From a virus: 45,413 bases of DNA. The DNA lies in IMG/VR virus record IMGVR_UViG_3300028563_000031, positions 1 to 45,413 of that record. One strand, given 5' to 3'. The first letter of the stretch is position 1; each line of letters opens with the position of its first letter. Under the pieces are notes generated by a model, which did no database searches, was not told where the DNA came from, and was given only the letters and a program-made list of their open reading frames with translations. This document shows positions 3,309-45,413 of the stretch, one piece after another. Position numbers and translations under genes: made by a program.

Positions 3309-4529
3309 ATGAAAAAAAAACAGACTGATGTAGACGTAATCATGCCAAAGCTCGTACAGGGCGAAAAGGCTTGGTTTGTGGAATATTGTTGCTTCTGCCC
3401 ACGAACTAATAAATTAGAAAAATTCAGGGTTTACAAAGGCTTCAAAAAGCTGAAGACTGAAAAAGAAAAGATTCATTTTGGAAATGAAATAATTAAAGTC
3501 TTTTCGAAGCAGCTTCTATCCGGTTGGCGACCCTGGGACCATACTGTTTATTTGTATCGTGATGAAATTCAATATAAATCGGTAACAAATAGTTTTGGAA
3601 ACAAAAAAAACAATAGTTCCCACCTCCGAAAATATCTCTCAGATTTTCTAATTGAGACAAAGCGTCGGGTCTCAAAAAAATCATACGAAACTTACCAGGG
3701 GAAAACCCGCTTATTCTGTCAATGGCTCGAAGAAAATGGCTATAAAGACTTACGTGTATTCGAAATACAGAATGCTGTCGTTAAAAAATACTTCAATTAT
3801 CTGATTGATACAAGAAAGTTGGATAAGGTCACGGTTGATAAATACTGTCAGAATATCAATCAATTGTTTAAATTCTTCGTTAAGCAAAAACTTATTGATA
3901 AGAATCCGGTATTTGATATTGTGCTTCCACCGAAACGAAAAGACATGGCCGCGCGCCCGATGGCGGATGATGATATGAAAGTTTTCCTAAATTATGTGGC
4001 GATCAAAGATGAGCAGTTCCTTCTGGCCTGTTTAATGCAATTTTTTTTATGTTGTAGGCCAGGCAATGAATTACGTTTGCTGAAAATACAAGATATTGAC
4101 TTTTACGCCGGAGTAGTACATATTACTCAGGAAGATGGCAAAACCGGCACCCGTAAAATAACAATGCCATCCGCACTAATAGAATTGTGCAATAATTATA
4201 AATTGAGTGATTATCCACGAGCTTATTATGTTTTTTCCATTAATGGAAAGCCTGGAATGAAGGAATTAAGCCGTAACTTTTTTTACAGAAAATTTATAAA
4301 ATATCGTAACGAACTTGGATTGCCACTCATATATAAGTTTTACAGTTTTAAACACACCGGCGCGGGTAAATTGCTGGAAAGTGGCGCAACGCTGAGTGAA
4401 ATAATGAGCCATTTGGGACATACATCGTTGGAAAGTACATGTGCATACGTGAAGCGGCATTTTGGGCAAAAATCAGAAAAGGTGTTGAACTTTAGGCCAG
4501 AGGTGTTAAACGGAATTATTAAGTTTTAA
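3309..4529 (+). CDS. int: Tyrosine recombinase (phage integrase)
   Basis: A 406-aa site-specific recombinase that integrates and excises the phage chromosome. The N-terminal part (about 1-100) is basic and probably arm-binding, residues 105-200 form the core-binding SAM-like domain, and 210-400 the catalytic domain. Catalytic residues visible are R250 (CCRPGNE), H371 (LGHTS) and nucleophile Y380 (TCAYVKR). The usual HxxR box reads YSFK at 345-348, so the second arginine is lysine; I know this K-H-T variant from Bacteroidota integrases. Translated rightward, its 3' end overlaps the convergent tail gene by 11 bp. The attachment site is probably just upstream. Confidence 0.93.
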   Translation: MKKKQTDVDVIMPKLVQGEKAWFVEYCCFCPRTNKLEKFRVYKGFKKLKTEKEKIHFGNEIIKVFSKQLLSGWRPWDHTVYLYRDEIQYKSVTNSFGNKKNNSSHLRKYLSDFLIETKRRVSKKSYETYQGKTRLFCQWLEENGYKDLRVFEIQNAVVKKYFNYLIDTRKLDKVTVDKYCQNINQLFKFFVKQKLIDKNPVFDIVLPPKRKDMAARPMADDDMKVFLNYVAIKDEQFLLACLMQFFLCCRPGNELRLLKIQDIDFYAGVVHITQEDGKTGTRKITMPSALIELCNNYKLSDYPRAYYVFSINGKPGMKELSRNFFYRKFIKYRNELGLPLIYKFYSFKHTGAGKLLESGATLSEIMSHLGHTSLESTCAYVKRHFGQKSEKVLNFRPEVLNGIIKF

Positions 4530-37471: not shown

Positions 37472-37777
37472 TCATGTAAATTTAAATCTCTCATTATCTT
37501 TAACTATAGTAGTCGTAAATGGAAATCCTTCATCCGGTATCTGTTGAATTACCTCAATTAAACCTCCTGCTGAAGTAAAAACGATGTGCTTTTCATTATC
37601 AACAGAGATCTGAAGCTGCAAACATTTACCGCTTCCACGTTCCTTGAAACATTTAGAGTCATCAATTTTGAAATGATATACCACGATTTCGCGGTTTAGG
37701 ATCTTCGACATTTTAATTTTATCACCTTCGTATCCTTTTGAGGGTTCTTTAATTTTAAACTGACTAAAATTATTCAT
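37472..37777 (-). CDS. Small beta-rich protein coupled to the DGR reverse transcriptase, 101 aa
   Basis: Its start overlaps the reverse transcriptase stop by 8 nt, so it is translated with it. The sequence alternates strands (REIVVYHFKIDDS, KCLQLQISVDNEKHIVFTS, PFTTTIVKDNERFKF) with SKCFKERGSGKCLQLQI, consistent with a small beta-barrel (OB-like) protein. It is not the usual helical Avd accessory protein of DGRs by composition. It could replace Avd as an RNA- or DNA-binding partner; this is speculation from coupling. Confidence 0.7.
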   Translation of the reverse strand: MNNFSQFKIKEPSKGYEGDKIKMSKILNREIVVYHFKIDDSKCFKERGSGKCLQLQISVDNEKHIVFTSAGGLIEVIQQIPDEGFPFTTTIVKDNERFKFT

Positions 37778-38723
37778 GTAATAACTTCTTTAATAAATGT
37801 ATACTATTACAATGACTAGCCCAGCCATTGTATGATGCTATGGATTGTTTATTCTTATTGTTTACCAACATCCTGGCAAAGTTCTGTTTAATGCTTTTCC
37901 TTAAAAGAGTATGTGTATGATGGAAAACGTAACCTACAAAATCAATTCCCCTGGCCTTTACCGGAAAGATTTGATAATTATCCTTTATTTGCAGTTTAAG
38001 CCTTTCATTCATATATATTTTTATGTCTGCAAGCAATTTGTGTAAGTACGGTTTGCTATTCGATAAAATAACCAGGTCATCAGCATATCTGAAGTAATAT
38101 TGTACATGCTTTTCTTCTTTCATCCAGTGATCAAAATATGACAAATAGAAATTTGCGAAATATTGGCTGAGATAATTGCCAATGGGTAATCCATCAGTGC
38201 TGTCAATAATTTCATCAAGGAGCCATAATAGATCCAGGTCTTTAAACTTTCGGCGAAGCAATTGCTTCAAAATATTATGATTTATGTTCGGATAGAACTT
38301 TTTAATGTCGAGTTTCATACAATATTGCGTTGCATCTTTATCTTTTAATGCATTTTTAACTGCATTAGCGCAAGCGTGAATTCCCCTTTTTTTAATACAA
38401 CTATAAGTATCGGCGGTAAATGTTGATACAAAAATAGGTTCAAGTATATGCATAATTGCATGGTGAGTGATGCGATCAGGAAAATATGGCAACCTGAATA
38501 TAATCCTTTCTTTTGGTTCGTGTATTGTAAAGGTTGTATAATCAGAAGTTTTGTAAGTTTTATTTATAAGCATTTCGTGAAGCTTCACTATGTTTTCATC
38601 CCTGTTTTTATCGTGTTCAATTATACCAGGTTGTTTTGATTTCCCTTTTCGGGCAATAATATCAGCCAATTGAATATTTTCAATGCTGCAGATCTGTTCG
38701 TATAAATTATTAATCCTTTTCAT
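37770..38723 (-). CDS. Diversity-generating retroelement reverse transcriptase, 317 aa
   Basis: Motifs occur in RT order: KERIIFRLPYFPDRITHHAI (71-90), YCMKLDIKKFYPNI (134-147, catalytic D139), DGLPIGNYLSQYFANFYL (177-194), and FRYADDLVIL (211-220, catalytic D215/D216), then GIDFVGYVF. IGNYLSQ, in place of the QGxxxSP of retroviral enzymes, is the DGR signature in motif 4. No integrase or maturase domain is present. It is transcribed after the two target genes and the 82-nt template 101 bp upstream. It would copy the template RNA with errors at adenines and write the cDNA into the variable repeats. Confidence 0.97.
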   Translation of the reverse strand: MKRINNLYEQICSIENIQLADIIARKGKSKQPGIIEHDKNRDENIVKLHEMLINKTYKTSDYTTFTIHEPKERIIFRLPYFPDRITHHAIMHILEPIFVSTFTADTYSCIKKRGIHACANAVKNALKDKDATQYCMKLDIKKFYPNINHNILKQLLRRKFKDLDLLWLLDEIIDSTDGLPIGNYLSQYFANFYLSYFDHWMKEEKHVQYYFRYADDLVILSNSKPYLHKLLADIKIYMNERLKLQIKDNYQIFPVKARGIDFVGYVFHHTHTLLRKSIKQNFARMLVNNKNKQSIASYNGWASHCNSIHLLKKLLHE

Positions 38724-38824
38724 TTGCCTTTGCTTTTAAAAGATCGCATTCCCCGAAAGTACCAGCGCTCTTTATGGTAATGTTATTTTTTGCCATGCGG
38801 GCAAGGTTTATGTTGCAAATATTC

Positions 38825-38906
38825 GCATAGGTGAGAACTGACGTTCGTATTCGTGTTCGTATAGTTGTAATTCGAATTCGACAAAACGAACCTGGAACCG
38901 GAAGAC
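38825..38906 (-). ncRNA. DGR template repeat (TR), 82 nt
   Basis: Read on the minus strand it encodes SSGSRFVLSNSNYNYTNTNTN. It has 21 adenines, six AAY codons among them. Compared with VR1 it differs at 13 positions and with VR2 at 15; every difference is at a template adenine, and all 61 non-adenine bases are identical in all three. It lies between the first target gene and the reverse transcriptase. Confidence 0.97.
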
Positions 38907-38942
38907 ACTAGCAGCTCTGGCAACATACAACCTTAATATCAA

Positions 38943-39356
38943 TTAAAAAAAATAGTCCTGGTATTCGGCCTTAAACTGCTTTGCAATGTATAATGACTTT
39001 TCAGATGTATCAGTGCAAAGGCGAGAACCGACGTACGTAAACGCGATCGTATAGTCGTAACCCGAATCCGACAAAACGAACCCGGAACCGGAAGACTTAA
39101 CTTCATACCATGGATAGTATTTATATTGATTCCAATCGGTATAATCAGCAATCCATCCATTGTTAATTGCCTGAAAGATGATCATCAGTTTATAAGCATT
39201 AATTATTGCTTTTCTTAAACCTTCAGGTAACATGGATACATCTGGAAGTTTTTCAGGATCCACATTTTCTTTTTTACAGGCGTCTTCAAAGCTTTTAATC
39301 ATTTTAAAATTGAACTCGACCGTCTTTTTAACTGTTTTTTTTGCTTTAGTTTCCAT
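38943..39356 (-). CDS. DGR target protein 1, 137 aa
   Basis: A small soluble protein with no signal peptide or membrane helix. The N-terminus is Lys-rich, and a helical part follows to about residue 70. Then comes the conserved frame YYPWYEVKSSGSGFVLS, the variable region, and VGSRLC followed by a helix (SEKSLYIAKQFKAEYQDYFF). I know this PW.. GSGF .. VGSRLCF pattern from short Bacteroidota phage proteins. Template-encoded NSNYNYTNTNTNVSSH is here DSGYDYTIAFTYVGSR, so most template Asn codons have been changed. It is 17 nt after target 2 and precedes the template. Confidence 0.92.
   Translation of the reverse strand: METKAKKTVKKTVEFNFKMIKSFEDACKKENVDPEKLPDVSMLPEGLRKAIINAYKLMIIFQAINNGWIADYTDWNQYKYYPWYEVKSSGSGFVLSDSGYDYTIAFTYVGSRLCTDTSEKSLYIAKQFKAEYQDYFF
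39015..39096 (-). repeat. DGR variable repeat 1 (VR1), 82 nt
   Basis: Aligned without gaps to TR 38825-38906 (constant offset 190). Thirteen of 21 template adenines are substituted (to G or T), with no other change. It ends 23 codons before the gene end. Confidence 0.97.
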
Positions 39357-39373
39357 TGTTTATTTGGTTTAGA

Positions 39374-39829
39374 TTATAAAAAATAGTTGTAAAGATCAAT
39401 GAATTGCTGTGCTACGTAGTTTGATTTTTCTTCGCTTTCAAAGCAAAGGCGAGAACCGACGTACGTAAACGCGTACGTACAGTCGGAATCCGAAGACGAC
39501 AAAACGAACCCGGAACCGGAAGACTTTGTAAATACCGGGAACCATTTGGGTTGATTAGGATTGTTAAAGTCTGGAACAAAATTGCCATTTACTGCACTGA
39601 TAACTACTTTTAATTTTTTATAGGCAATTTCATCAGGCGTATCAGAAGAATTGAAAACGATATCTTCCGGTTTAATGCCTTTAAATACACAGGCATCTTC
39701 TAAAGTTTTAATGTCCTCAAAACTTTGTTTATTGAAGGTTTTCTCTCCAAATTCTGAAACCAATTGTTCTTTGAACCAATCAGGTGAATCAGAATAGATC
39801 CTTTTTGCAACTGTTTTTGTTATTTCCAT
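39374..39829 (-). CDS. DGR target protein 2, 151 aa
   Basis: A paralogue of target 1. The N-terminal 80 residues diverge, but KWFPVFTKSSGSGFVLS, the variable region and VGSRLCFESEEKSNYVAQQFIDLYNYFL align directly. The variable residues are SSDSDCTYAFTYVGSR against the template NSNYNYTNTNTNVSSH. No signal peptide is seen. One template therefore serves two different scaffolds. It lies 36 nt after the membrane zinc-finger gene. Ligand-binding diversification is the known DGR purpose; what this protein binds is unknown. Confidence 0.92.
   Translation of the reverse strand: MEITKTVAKRIYSDSPDWFKEQLVSEFGEKTFNKQSFEDIKTLEDACVFKGIKPEDIVFNSSDTPDEIAYKKLKVVISAVNGNFVPDFNNPNQPKWFPVFTKSSGSGFVLSSSDSDCTYAFTYVGSRLCFESEEKSNYVAQQFIDLYNYFL
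39443..39524 (-). repeat. DGR variable repeat 2 (VR2), 82 nt
   Basis: Aligned without gaps to TR; 15 of 21 template adenines are substituted (to G, T or C), nothing else. VR1 and VR2 differ from each other at 7 positions, all template adenines and all in the 5' two-thirds, while the last 30 nt are identical. Confidence 0.97.
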
Positions 39830-40951: not shown

Positions 40952-43900
40952 TTAAAAGGGTAAATCATCCTTATTGCCGTTTCCATTATTATTAAAATCC
41001 ATCTTTATTTGTGACTCGTCAGCCGGACCATAATCAACTGCTATTTGAGGCGTACCGTCGCCATATTTTTCCAGGTCAATCATATCTTCGAGCAATTCAT
41101 AATCTAATGCCAGGGCGCTTGTATTAGCAGTTGCTTCCCTTGCTATCTTTGTTACCCTTTTTTCAATCGGATCAAATTGCTCTTCAATTTCTGTCCATGA
41201 AAACCGGGTACTTTTAACTGTACCAATATAACTGACATGATCCTTCAAGTAATTCATCAGGTTGTTAAGCTTCAGAGATTCTGTTTTTCGTACATCCTGA
41301 TACATGGCATGCAAAATATTGATGCGTAGGAATAATATCTTTTTTTCAGAAAAATTACGTTCTGCGGTTTCGTTCCGGTTCTCCATTACGGTTATTTTGC
41401 TCAGTTTTTCAATCTTAAATTCTTTACCAGGCTTAATTCCGTTTGGCCGATTCAATAGAAATACAATGGTGTCAAAGAATACGCTTACTCTATTGGTCGA
41501 GTTAATGGCCTCGCTCTGGGCAATTATCTTTGCCTTGGCGATATCATGAAAAGTTTTATAGGTAAATGGCAGTTTTAGCGATGGAACATGAACTTCCCAG
41601 AGTTTACACATAGCTGCAAAAAGCGAAACTGTGTTAAGAATACGTGTCTGGTGTGGCATGCCGCTTTTTGTCAAATCATCCTTTAATTGTTTGAATACAG
41701 CACGCTGGATCTTCTGGAAGTTATTGGATATAATGTCTCGTTGTTTGAGTACTTCAAGCAAAACATTTGATAATCCGGCTTTCTCTTTTTCCTTAAGCAA
41801 CCTGAACCATATGGACTCATTTTCACTCCAGTCATCCTTTTTTGGGACATGGCAGATTATACACCGATTGCCTAATGATCCGTCATCCCGTTCTGGTCCT
41901 TCCTGACCTAAAAGAACCGGCACTGCATTCACTTTTGTAATATCAAGATCTTTACTGGTTGCATCCTTTCGCTTTTGCTTTCCTTCACCATCGTATACCG
42001 CTGCCTTAAGTCCCTGAAATTTAATGTCGGATATCTGGTAATCGTTATATTCTTCATAAACTACCGGAACATCCCTATAGCGTTCCAGGGTTGTAAAAAA
42101 GGCGGCATCGGTACCTGAATTTAAGTTAAAAAGGGGAGCATCTGGTTTCATGTATAAACTCCGGATTGATATGGCAATTTGCGACTTGCCTGATTCAGTA
42201 GGACCAATAAAAAAGAGCGAAGTGAATAACCTGTCTATTGGATAAATGATTGACCGAAAGGCTGCCATCAAACTAAATAAGATTGCCCATTTACCATTGT
42301 CGCTGAGCTTGTAAACATCATCCATTAATTTTGCCCATTCGGCAAAGGTTGTCTCATTGTTTTCGCGATAAACAAAGAATCGGTCGTTCTCGAATTTGTC
42401 ATTATCCTGGCGTAAACCTGAAAAGATCTTGGAGAAGGCTGGTGAGTAATATGTTTTATCTTTAAAAGGCGCCAGGCCAAGATCATCAACATAGGTTATT
42501 TTATTATCGGCAAATATGGCGTTGGTGAATGCCCAGAAACCTTCATGTTGCTGCCCGAAAACATTCAACTCCCAACATTCCGGGAAATCTTTTGCAATGC
42601 TGGCTAGTATGGTTTCATGATGGTTCGATTTGCCTTTGGTAAATATGTTTCCGCCTTCATTAAATAATACCTTTTTGAACATTGCAAAATCGATCATGGC
42701 CGATGAGTTCATTTCAACATAATTGCTCCGGCATTGCTCTGCATTATTGATCTTTATAACACGTTTGTTTTTATTTGGGTCAGGATCCTTAATGTGAAAA
42801 AGAGGTTCTATATAGAAATTTCCTATTACCTGTAAACCGCCTTCCTGTGTGCGAAAAACATATCTTACTTTGTCGCCTTTGCTATTCTGATAGGGAAAAT
42901 AACCCCAGCGAGCATAAAATTGCTGATCAACATATTCTGGCAACCGGTCGGGTTCAAATCGCATATTCTCAGCTTCTTCAAATACTTCATTTTGCAGGGC
43001 ATACCTTGATTTATTCTTCTCCAGGAAGGGTTTCATTACCTTTTTAAAATCAGCTTCCTTTATGCCCAGCTTTCCCGCGTATGTTTTTGTATTTACATTA
43101 ATATTGGTATTGTCCGATCCGGATAGAAGTTCTGCAGCGTCTTCGATGGCTTTGTTTCGTAACTCCTGATCGTACAAATTGGCGTTGATAAACTTTCCAG
43201 TAAGATAAAAGTAGTGTTCCATAAAAGAAATGGTTTCGGATACATACTTTTCATCGTCGGCATTTACTTTAAGGTTAAATTTGAAATTGTATAGTTGTTT
43301 GCAGAACTGTATTTGATCGGTAAGTTTATTGTCTTCTGTGTAAATCAAATCGATTGAATCTAAAAGATTGAGATTATGTGTTAAACTGTTAAGTTCCTGT
43401 ATCTGGCTAAAAGTTAAATTACCACGGTAGGATATTGTATTTTCTATGCCTTCATCCCATTTTCGATACATCAACTCAAGGTCTAACGTGATAAAAACTT
43501 CGTCCTGTTCCCTGATTGGTTCAGTTGCCCAGTCGAGATAGATCCAACCTGATTTTATGTTCTCCTGGCTGGGTTCTTTATGCTTGATATTACGTATTGT
43601 CTTATCTACCAGCTTCACATCAATCTTAAATTTTTCAATGCATAACCTTTTATACATATCCCGGGTAACAGGGTCCCGGATGAGAGATATTGAAGTTAAT
43701 AATTCCCTGATAAAATCAGCTTCCTTGAGCGGGTCCTTATCAGTTTCGGCCTTTAAAATTTCCTGTTTGAAAGTGATAAAGTCTTTTCTATGATCTTCAA
43801 TATAGTCAGCAAGTTCTTTTGAAGTTTTTCGACGGGCGAAACTATCAGGATCGTCACCTGTAGGAAGTGCAATTGCACGGACGTTTATATCTTCTCCAAG

Positions 43901-44863
43901 CATCAGATCAATGCTCTTGAATGATGCCTTAATCCCTGCGATATCACCATCATAAATAATAGTGATGTTATTGGTAAACCTCCGGATCAATCTTATTTGA
44001 TCAATTGTAAATGCTGTTCCGGATCCACAAACTGTATTTTCAATACCTGCCTGGTGAAAAGATGTAACATCAAAATTGCCTTCAACCAGATAACATTCAT
44101 CTTCTTTTATGATTGCCTGTTTAGCCTGGTATAATCCGAAAAGAGCCTTTCCTTTGCTGAATAACTTAGTGTCCTTACTATTTAGATATTTTGCATCCTT
44201 TTCAGTCGCCTCCAGGATACGGCCAGTAAAACCAATTACATTACCTGATAAGTCGAGAAAAGGAAATATAACACGGTTCCTGAAGTAATCATAAGCGTTT
44301 TTTTCGTTCCTTCCAATAAGTGATGAATCAAGTAAGAATGATTCTTTAAATCCTTTTTTGCGGGCGTTCTCCAGTAAATCGTTCCAGGATGATATTGCAA
44401 AACCAAGCTTAAACTTTTCAATGATGGCGCTTCCCTGTTGACGTTCCAAAAGATATTTTTTAACCTCCGGATTATCAATATTCGAATGGAAATAACCAAC
44501 TCCCCATTCATGAACTAGTTTAAGCGATTCGCGTTCATCGGCGTGGGCTTTTTCTTCAGGTGAAAGGTCTTTTTGTTCCACCTCAATGCCGTACTTTTTG
44601 CCCAACCATTTAACCGATTCAATAAATGTAAGGTTTTCGTGCGCCTGGATAAAGTCAATTGCATTGTTGCCGCCTTTGCCACAGCCAAAACATTTATATA
44701 TGCCTTTAGACTGGCTAACGGTAAAAGATGGTGTTTTCTCGGAGTGAAAAGGGCAGCAACCGATATAATTAACGCCGCGTTTTTTTAATGAAACAAATTC
44801 TGAGACAACATCTACAATGGAAGATGCCTGTATAATTTTATCAATCGTTTCTTGTGGGATCAT
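40952..44863 (-). CDS. Fused DnaG-type primase and helicase with SSB-like C-terminal tip, 1303 aa
   Basis: The CHC2 zinc finger spans about 37-61 (CPFH ... CFGC). The DnaG core includes YFRNRVIFPFLDLSGNVIGFTGR (about 193-215), and TOPRIM motifs EGNFD (261-265) and DGD (305-307). A long middle region is followed by Walker A GPTESGKS near 886-893 and LLGQEGPERDDGSLGNRCI, giving an AAA+/SF3-like helicase. The protein ends NNGNGNKDDLPF, the conserved acidic tip of bacterial SSB. No polymerase gene is visible, so it must prime and unwind for the host replisome. It overlaps the 105-aa gene by 1 nt and is followed by the predicted origin. Confidence 0.93.
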   Translation of the reverse strand: MIPQETIDKIIQASSIVDVVSEFVSLKKRGVNYIGCCPFHSEKTPSFTVSQSKGIYKCFGCGKGGNNAIDFIQAHENLTFIESVKWLGKKYGIEVEQKDLSPEEKAHADERESLKLVHEWGVGYFHSNIDNPEVKKYLLERQQGSAIIEKFKLGFAISSWNDLLENARKKGFKESFLLDSSLIGRNEKNAYDYFRNRVIFPFLDLSGNVIGFTGRILEATEKDAKYLNSKDTKLFSKGKALFGLYQAKQAIIKEDECYLVEGNFDVTSFHQAGIENTVCGSGTAFTIDQIRLIRRFTNNITIIYDGDIAGIKASFKSIDLMLGEDINVRAIALPTGDDPDSFARRKTSKELADYIEDHRKDFITFKQEILKAETDKDPLKEADFIRELLTSISLIRDPVTRDMYKRLCIEKFKIDVKLVDKTIRNIKHKEPSQENIKSGWIYLDWATEPIREQDEVFITLDLELMYRKWDEGIENTISYRGNLTFSQIQELNSLTHNLNLLDSIDLIYTEDNKLTDQIQFCKQLYNFKFNLKVNADDEKYVSETISFMEHYFYLTGKFINANLYDQELRNKAIEDAAELLSGSDNTNINVNTKTYAGKLGIKEADFKKVMKPFLEKNKSRYALQNEVFEEAENMRFEPDRLPEYVDQQFYARWGYFPYQNSKGDKVRYVFRTQEGGLQVIGNFYIEPLFHIKDPDPNKNKRVIKINNAEQCRSNYVEMNSSAMIDFAMFKKVLFNEGGNIFTKGKSNHHETILASIAKDFPECWELNVFGQQHEGFWAFTNAIFADNKITYVDDLGLAPFKDKTYYSPAFSKIFSGLRQDNDKFENDRFFVYRENNETTFAEWAKLMDDVYKLSDNGKWAILFSLMAAFRSIIYPIDRLFTSLFFIGPTESGKSQIAISIRSLYMKPDAPLFNLNSGTDAAFFTTLERYRDVPVVYEEYNDYQISDIKFQGLKAAVYDGEGKQKRKDATSKDLDITKVNAVPVLLGQEGPERDDGSLGNRCIICHVPKKDDWSENESIWFRLLKEKEKAGLSNVLLEVLKQRDIISNNFQKIQRAVFKQLKDDLTKSGMPHQTRILNTVSLFAAMCKLWEVHVPSLKLPFTYKTFHDIAKAKIIAQSEAINSTNRVSVFFDTIVFLLNRPNGIKPGKEFKIEKLSKITVMENRNETAERNFSEKKILFLRINILHAMYQDVRKTESLKLNNLMNYLKDHVSYIGTVKSTRFSWTEIEEQFDPIEKRVTKIAREATANTSALALDYELLEDMIDLEKYGDGTPQIAVDYGPADESQIKMDFNNNGNGNKDDLPF

Positions 44864-45191: not shown

Positions 45192-45413
45192 TTAGTCTTT
45201 AAGATTGTTAACATATTCCTTTAATTCCCTGCGATATTCAATTCGTTCCGTTTCTTCCATTTCCTGTAATTCGTCATATAATTGGGAATCGAAAATTTCC
45301 AGGATTGCATCTTCAAGCAAACGCATTAATCGTTCAGGCCTGACGGCATCAAGTTCGACTTGTCCTAATCCATCCCATTTGGCAGTCCTGGAATCGGTTT
45401 TTTTAGCTGGCGC
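45192..45413 (-). CDS. Topoisomerase VI subunit A-like TOPRIM protein (N-terminus cut by the window edge)
   Basis: This is the C-terminal part of the gene described at 1-784. It enters at the window end, repeats bases 1-127 of the window, and ends with QLYDELQEMEETERIEYRRELKEY and a stop at 45194-45192. The residues after the repeat form a charged helix. Joined at the circle the protein is 292 residues and has no internal stop. Confidence 0.85.
   Translation of the reverse strand, partial: APAKKTDSRTAKWDGLGQVELDAVRPERLMRLLEDAILEIFDSQLYDELQEMEETERIEYRRELKEYVNNLKD
45287..45413. repeat. Direct terminal repeat, copy 2 (circular-assembly overlap)
   Basis: Identical to bases 1-127. It shows that the contig closes into a circle. 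Confidence 0.93.

Follow-up and report, generated by a model that had tools for sequence, protein, structure and literature searches.

Bacteroidota phages of the gut and mouth are abundant, and the way in which temperate phages without a polymerase hand their origins over to the host replisome is known mainly from well-studied models. The question of this handover is raised by one gene of the phage sequence analysed here, record IMGVR_UViG_3300028563_000031, positions 1 to 45,413 (the whole 45,413-nt stretch, hereafter the window). Its primase-helicase (40952-44863, minus strand) ends in DDLPF, exactly as the initial annotation had read it, with DFNNNGNGNKDDLPF running directly into the stop codon. 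This ending resembles the C-terminal tip of bacterial SSB (SSB-Ct). If this one conserved six-residue helicase peptide provides the link to the host, it would give a directly testable answer on the handover.

DnaG primase and MCM-like helicase in a single chain

The gene encodes 1303 amino acids between an ATG start and a TAA stop, matches the PHROG primase family at 1.4e-115, and has full-length relatives at 35-53% identity. Residues 1-420 (43604..44863, minus strand) form the DnaG part. The three elements expected of a DnaG primase are all present in Pfam matches, namely the CHC2 zinc ribbon, the DNAG_N core and the Toprim domain, followed by a partly matched DnaB-binding domain at residues 382-415. 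TIGR01391 matches residues 1-408 (E 4.9e-122, 407.8 bits against a cut-off of 283.6), and the PDB DnaG structure 2au3 is matched at E 1e-105 over profile positions 6-420.

The remainder of the protein was assigned by its predicted fold. An AlphaFold model of residues 560-1303 only, leaving out the DnaG part and built on an alignment of 35 relatives without the GenBank phage rows, has a pLDDT of 86.5. In a fold search, residues ~649-1269 (41057..42919, minus strand) resemble most closely SCCmec Cch (5dgk, Z 23.3 over 480 residues) and SaPIBov1 Rep (8tch, Z 21.3), with MCMs ranking next at Z of about 16, which places this part among the MCM-like helicases of the DUF927/Cch/SaPIBov1 Rep group, with the AAA+ fold of both proteins. 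The fold search alone provided this match, as searching PDB sequences with the helicase profile returned nothing credible. The DUF927 domain is already known in Cch and SaPIBov1 Rep (PMC10061031, PMC7581432); in Pfam it is matched in 15/40 members of the phage family (best E 4.6e-5) and not in the window's own primase-helicase. The Walker A sequence GPTESGKS occupies residues 887-894 (42182..42205, minus strand), and G887, P888, S891, G892 and K893 are invariant in alignment A1. Taken together, the matches describe a DnaG primase that continues into an MCM-like AAA+ helicase, presumably ring-forming and probably self-loading, and that ends in a loose tail.

This tail comprises the last 34 residues (1270-1303; 40955..41056, minus strand), which AlphaFold predicts to be disordered (pLDDT 34-41) and without secondary structure, as is typical of the linker that carries an SSB-Ct. 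From the translation and the comparison of linkers, DFNNNGNGNKDDLPF (40955..40999, minus strand) consists of a G/N-rich linker and the tip KDDLPF (40955..40972, minus strand), with Phe at the free C-terminus. E. coli SSB-Ct reads DDDIPF. The window tip likewise has a free terminal Phe, Pro at −2, a hydrophobic residue at −3 and an acidic residue at −4, and its DDLPF thereby has the final Phe, the Pro at −2 and the preceding acidic residues of the SSB-Ct motif. A scan for a terminator beside the tip found none.

A temperate phage without detectable SSB or polymerase

A 127-bp direct terminal repeat (positions 1-127 and 45287-45413) makes it probable that the contig covers the whole genome of the phage, assembled as a circle, so that the absence of genes from it carries weight. 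The presence of an integrase at 3309-4529 indicates that the phage is temperate. A protein that PHROGs lists as "topoisomerase" (phrog_6247) spans the contig junction, and it has no match in PDB or NCBIfam, nor one above the cut-off in Pfam.

The initial annotation had found neither a phage SSB nor a phage polymerase, and this holds up in profile searches: the window has no detectable SSB (PF00436), Pol A or Pol III alpha, the Pfam scan of the primase-helicase itself gives no PF00436 match, and PHROG scans of the other main open reading frames give no SSB or polymerase save a reverse transcriptase at 37770-38723. The same is seen more widely, as SSB was found in 0/50 related phage records, where highly diverged SSBs could escape PF00436, and Pol A or Pol III alpha in 0/44 records including the window, where highly diverged polymerases could escape as well.

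The reverse transcriptase (minus strand) belongs to a diversity-generating retroelement at 37770-39829 (minus strand) that adjoins the replication module. Its template repeat lies at 38784-38908, and its two variable repeats (38974-39098 and 39402-39526) each lie in the 3' end of one of two related genes, tandem phrog_11581 paralogues of unassigned function (38943-39356 and 39374-39829), all on the minus strand. Each copy has 43-44 mismatches on the coding strand, 22-23 of them on template A, and over the first ~82 bases nearly all mismatches are at template A.

The tip is kept while the tail around it changes

The initial annotation had staked its reading on relatives keeping the tip, and they do. 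Among 124 distinct C-termini of relatives, drawn from viral contigs, bacterial genomes and phage records, 105/124 end in F and 77/124 in PF. When the relatives were clustered at 70% identity and compared with 719 other phage open reading frames of the same loci, a terminal F was found in 32/45 clusters against 38/719 (5.3%) in the background (binomial p 5e-31), and a terminal PF in 26/45 clusters against 7/719 (1.0%; Fisher p 6e-30), both tests taking the clusters as independent. By position, the 45 clusters have F at the end in 71%, P at −2 in 67% (30/45), L at −3 in 40% (18/45) and an acidic residue at −4 in 58%, and none of the deeper positions is conserved. The codons at the tip vary, with both TTT and TTC for Phe, every Pro codon and three different stops in use, and this synonymous and stop codon variety indicates that selection acts on the peptide and not on the DNA. 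Between the last conserved helix and the tip lie anywhere from 9 to >40 residues, and the tip stays terminal throughout. As far as can be read from these alignments, the peptide is kept at the very C-terminus while the length and sequence of the tail vary, and conservation of the tip on the primase-helicase reaches beyond the window to a large phage family. Such an ending is hardly to be expected from chance or functionless inheritance: terminal Phe does change often on the tree (19-25 changes), but an enrichment of p about 1e-30, with retention across helicases 24-40% alike despite synonymous codon turnover and linker indels, already refutes this explanation, to which we give next to no credence.

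The last 15 residues had been described as a copy of both the linker and the tip of SSB. The tip is indeed SSB-Ct-like and conserved, whereas the G/N-richness of the linker is peculiar to the window phage, the linkers of its relatives being rich in E, P, S, Q and A; the G/N-rich linker is therefore rejected as a copied SSB feature.

The tip is nevertheless not universal. Terminal F is missing from about 15% of the distinct close relatives, 29% of the clusters and 40% of the far relatives, which shows that terminal Phe is not essential everywhere. Porphyromonas phages have tips without Pro (EEDTF, EEMF), and 13 sequences that do not end in Phe still contain the PF, followed by a short extension, as in PFS or PFD. 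Two tips are present in 18 sequences; tandem tips occur in phages of Prevotella and its relatives (the primase C-termini at loci L118, L120, L141 and L024), for example QDLPFEPADGSAEPF. In a separate phage locus, L078:11113-11484, a 124-aa protein of unassigned function (phrog_36980), encoded 3' of the primase, ends in DGSDLPF, and is possibly, judging by this ending, a second carrier of an SSB tip.

The tip follows the helicase

Two further scans added families with helicases 24-40% alike, and among these far relatives a terminal F is found in 47/79 and PF in 39/79. This set includes helicases of ~710 residues that have no primase part and retain the tip, such as that of a Microcystis (cyanobacterial) phage, which ends in KPELPF. 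Since split helicases without the primase domain keep the tip, it follows the helicase and not the primase, which makes a coupling of the helicase to a polymerase or to restart proteins likelier than a primase-specific role. On a tree of 122 rows, built with the tail excluded, the tip is found in nearly all larger clades and requires 25 changes against 36.0 in shuffles; terminal Phe has been lost or gained many times, with 19-25 changes. It appears from these comparisons that the tip is widely retained, yet dispensable or replaceable in some lineages. The family that bears it is a large temperate phage group, mostly of Bacteroidota.

SSB tips and SSB-reading proteins of the hosts

The SSB of most genomes that carry the related prophages ends in DDLPF, EDDLPF or near it, and the window tip DDLPF is the commonest host SSB ending. 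The initial annotation had named host partners that are those of E. coli. PriA and RecO from this list are each encoded in 8/8 hosts tested, whereas the chi subunit of the clamp loader, a classic SSB partner on the polymerase side, is absent from 8/8 and is thus rejected as the clamp-loader contact. The earlier interpretation is therefore partly supported: its general outline is sound, but neither the argument from the linker nor the list of E. coli partners can be transferred to these phages and hosts.

The primase Phe is missing in 3/5 cases where the host SSB has no tip against 7/37 where the host tip is present (Fisher p 0.08). The covariation between host and phage tips in these sequences is weak, and since tip losses are at most weakly linked it was rejected as proof of mimicry. 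Some Bacteroidales genomes (L154, L155, L176, L167, L172) have an apparently single SSB without the usual tip; these SSBs stop at about 115-127 residues (TDNQ, TQA, ETAL) or end in LFR, and no tip was found nearby in another frame.

Proposed recruitment of host proteins and its alternatives

The retention of the tip amid scrambled surroundings indicates that it is probably the link of the phage to the host replication machinery. SSB-Ct pockets read the carboxylate of the terminal Phe and the preceding acidic residues (PMC5872125). We favour, with some reserve, the reading that the SSB-Ct-type tip recruits SSB-reading replication or restart proteins of the host to the helicase of a phage without a polymerase, and, jointly with it, that this protein initiates replication in a temperate Bacteroidota-group phage. 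A ring helicase that is a hexamer, as we infer, would show about six tips at the phage fork. These tips would dock in the basic pockets with which host proteins that find forks via SSB read the carboxylate; PriA and RecO, both present in the hosts, are candidates, and such docking would bring the host synthesis or restart machinery to the phage helicase. Pocket binding, the purpose of recruitment and the identity of the partners are likewise inferred.

The main rival is a direct, T7-type contact with the polymerase, in which the acidic Phe tail would touch a basic patch on the host polymerase and the likeness to SSB would be convergence. In T7 itself, the gp4 tail binds the phage's own polymerase and helps to sustain processive synthesis (PMC8472574). 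Gp4 ends in ..STDWSNDTDF, the gp2.5 tail of T7 is likewise acidic with a final Phe, and the EEDTF and EEMF members of the present family look closer to T7 DTDF than to SSB DDLPF. Polymerase docking would also be consistent with a tip that follows the helicase module, split helicases included. However, the Pro at −2 (30/45) and the Leu at −3 (18/45) copy the SSB tip and are absent from both T7 tails, and with no phage polymerase the partner must be that of the host, which is already selected for other use. We consider this explanation unlikely, though not negligible.

Alternatively, the tip may regulate its own protein by binding the DnaG part or the ring, blocking the binding of single-stranded DNA or loading until it is displaced by host SSB partners or DNA. 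Acidic SSB tails do fold back onto their own DNA-binding surface. In addition, E. coli DnaG is among the SSB-Ct binders (PMC5872125). The tail is, however, disordered and undocked in the model of residues 560-1303, a model that does not contain the DnaG part, and helicases without a primase keep the tip, though a separately encoded primase could be bound. Such self-regulation appears improbable.

The same peptide evidence that suggests recruitment would also suit a decoy that sequesters SSB-dependent repair or nuclease proteins of the host and so protects phage DNA, as nucleases and recombination mediators are among the partners of SSB (PMC5872125). A low-copy initiator would nevertheless be a poor competitor against abundant SSB, and the location of the tip on a fork helicase favours local recruitment, making a decoy very improbable.

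It is scarcely credible that the tip is instead a sliding-clamp-binding motif of the Q-x-x-L-P-F or Q-x-L-x-F kind, although some tips (QNELPF, QKELPF, QTEMPF) look like one. Gln is rare, with 16% of clusters having it at −5 and 13% at −6, compared with 58% that have an acidic residue at −4, and the window tip has no Gln, so that a beta-clamp motif is rejected as a general explanation. A clamp motif can lie inside a protein, but the Phe of the tip is the last residue, and this strict terminality fits the carboxylate chemistry of the SSB-Ct and thus argues against clamp binding.

Recruitment through the SSB-Ct-type tip may be extended, tentatively and at somewhat less than even odds, to a general strategy of temperate phages of the Bacteroidota group: the host SSB peptide would be copied onto an MCM-like primase-helicase, the fork would be read as SSB-coated, and the host polymerase or restart machinery would be taken over without a phage polymerase, SSB or helicase loader. 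Phage helicases would then borrow the interaction code of SSB, and the tip would be the counterpart of the T7 helicase tail on an unrelated helicase, aimed at the SSB-reading pockets of the host. No report of an SSB-Ct tip on phage primase-helicases was found in the open-access literature searched, and the subscription literature may differ.

Comparison with known systems

The phage tip shares with the bacterial SSB-Ct the acidic residues, the hydrophobic residue at −3, the Pro at −2, the free-carboxylate Phe and the disordered linker. It differs in standing on a primase-helicase that lacks the SSB OB-fold family and in its looser Pro and acidic content in some phage clades.

With T7 gp4, the window protein has in common a primase and a ring helicase in one chain and a flexible acidic tail ending in Phe, as in the window KDDLPF, and the gp4 tail offers a functional precedent for a tip-bearing phage helicase. 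The helicases themselves are unrelated: that of T7 gp4 is RecA-like SF4, a domain not found in the window protein, which gives a positive match to MCM-like AAA+ instead, and T7 gp4 chains are matched only weakly in the PDB search and over the Toprim part only. The gp4 primase is not a full bacterial DnaG, its tail has no Pro-Phe, and T7 encodes a polymerase and an SSB of its own, neither of which was detected in the window phage.

SCCmec Cch and SaPIBov1 Rep, MCM-like helicases of a class characterised by self-loading at a specific origin and 3'-5' unwinding, share the helicase fold, but their solved chains have no DnaG fusion. Bacterial DnaG, conversely, shares the zinc-binding and polymerase domains in full, and in the phage protein its C-terminal helicase-binding domain is swapped for the fused helicase.
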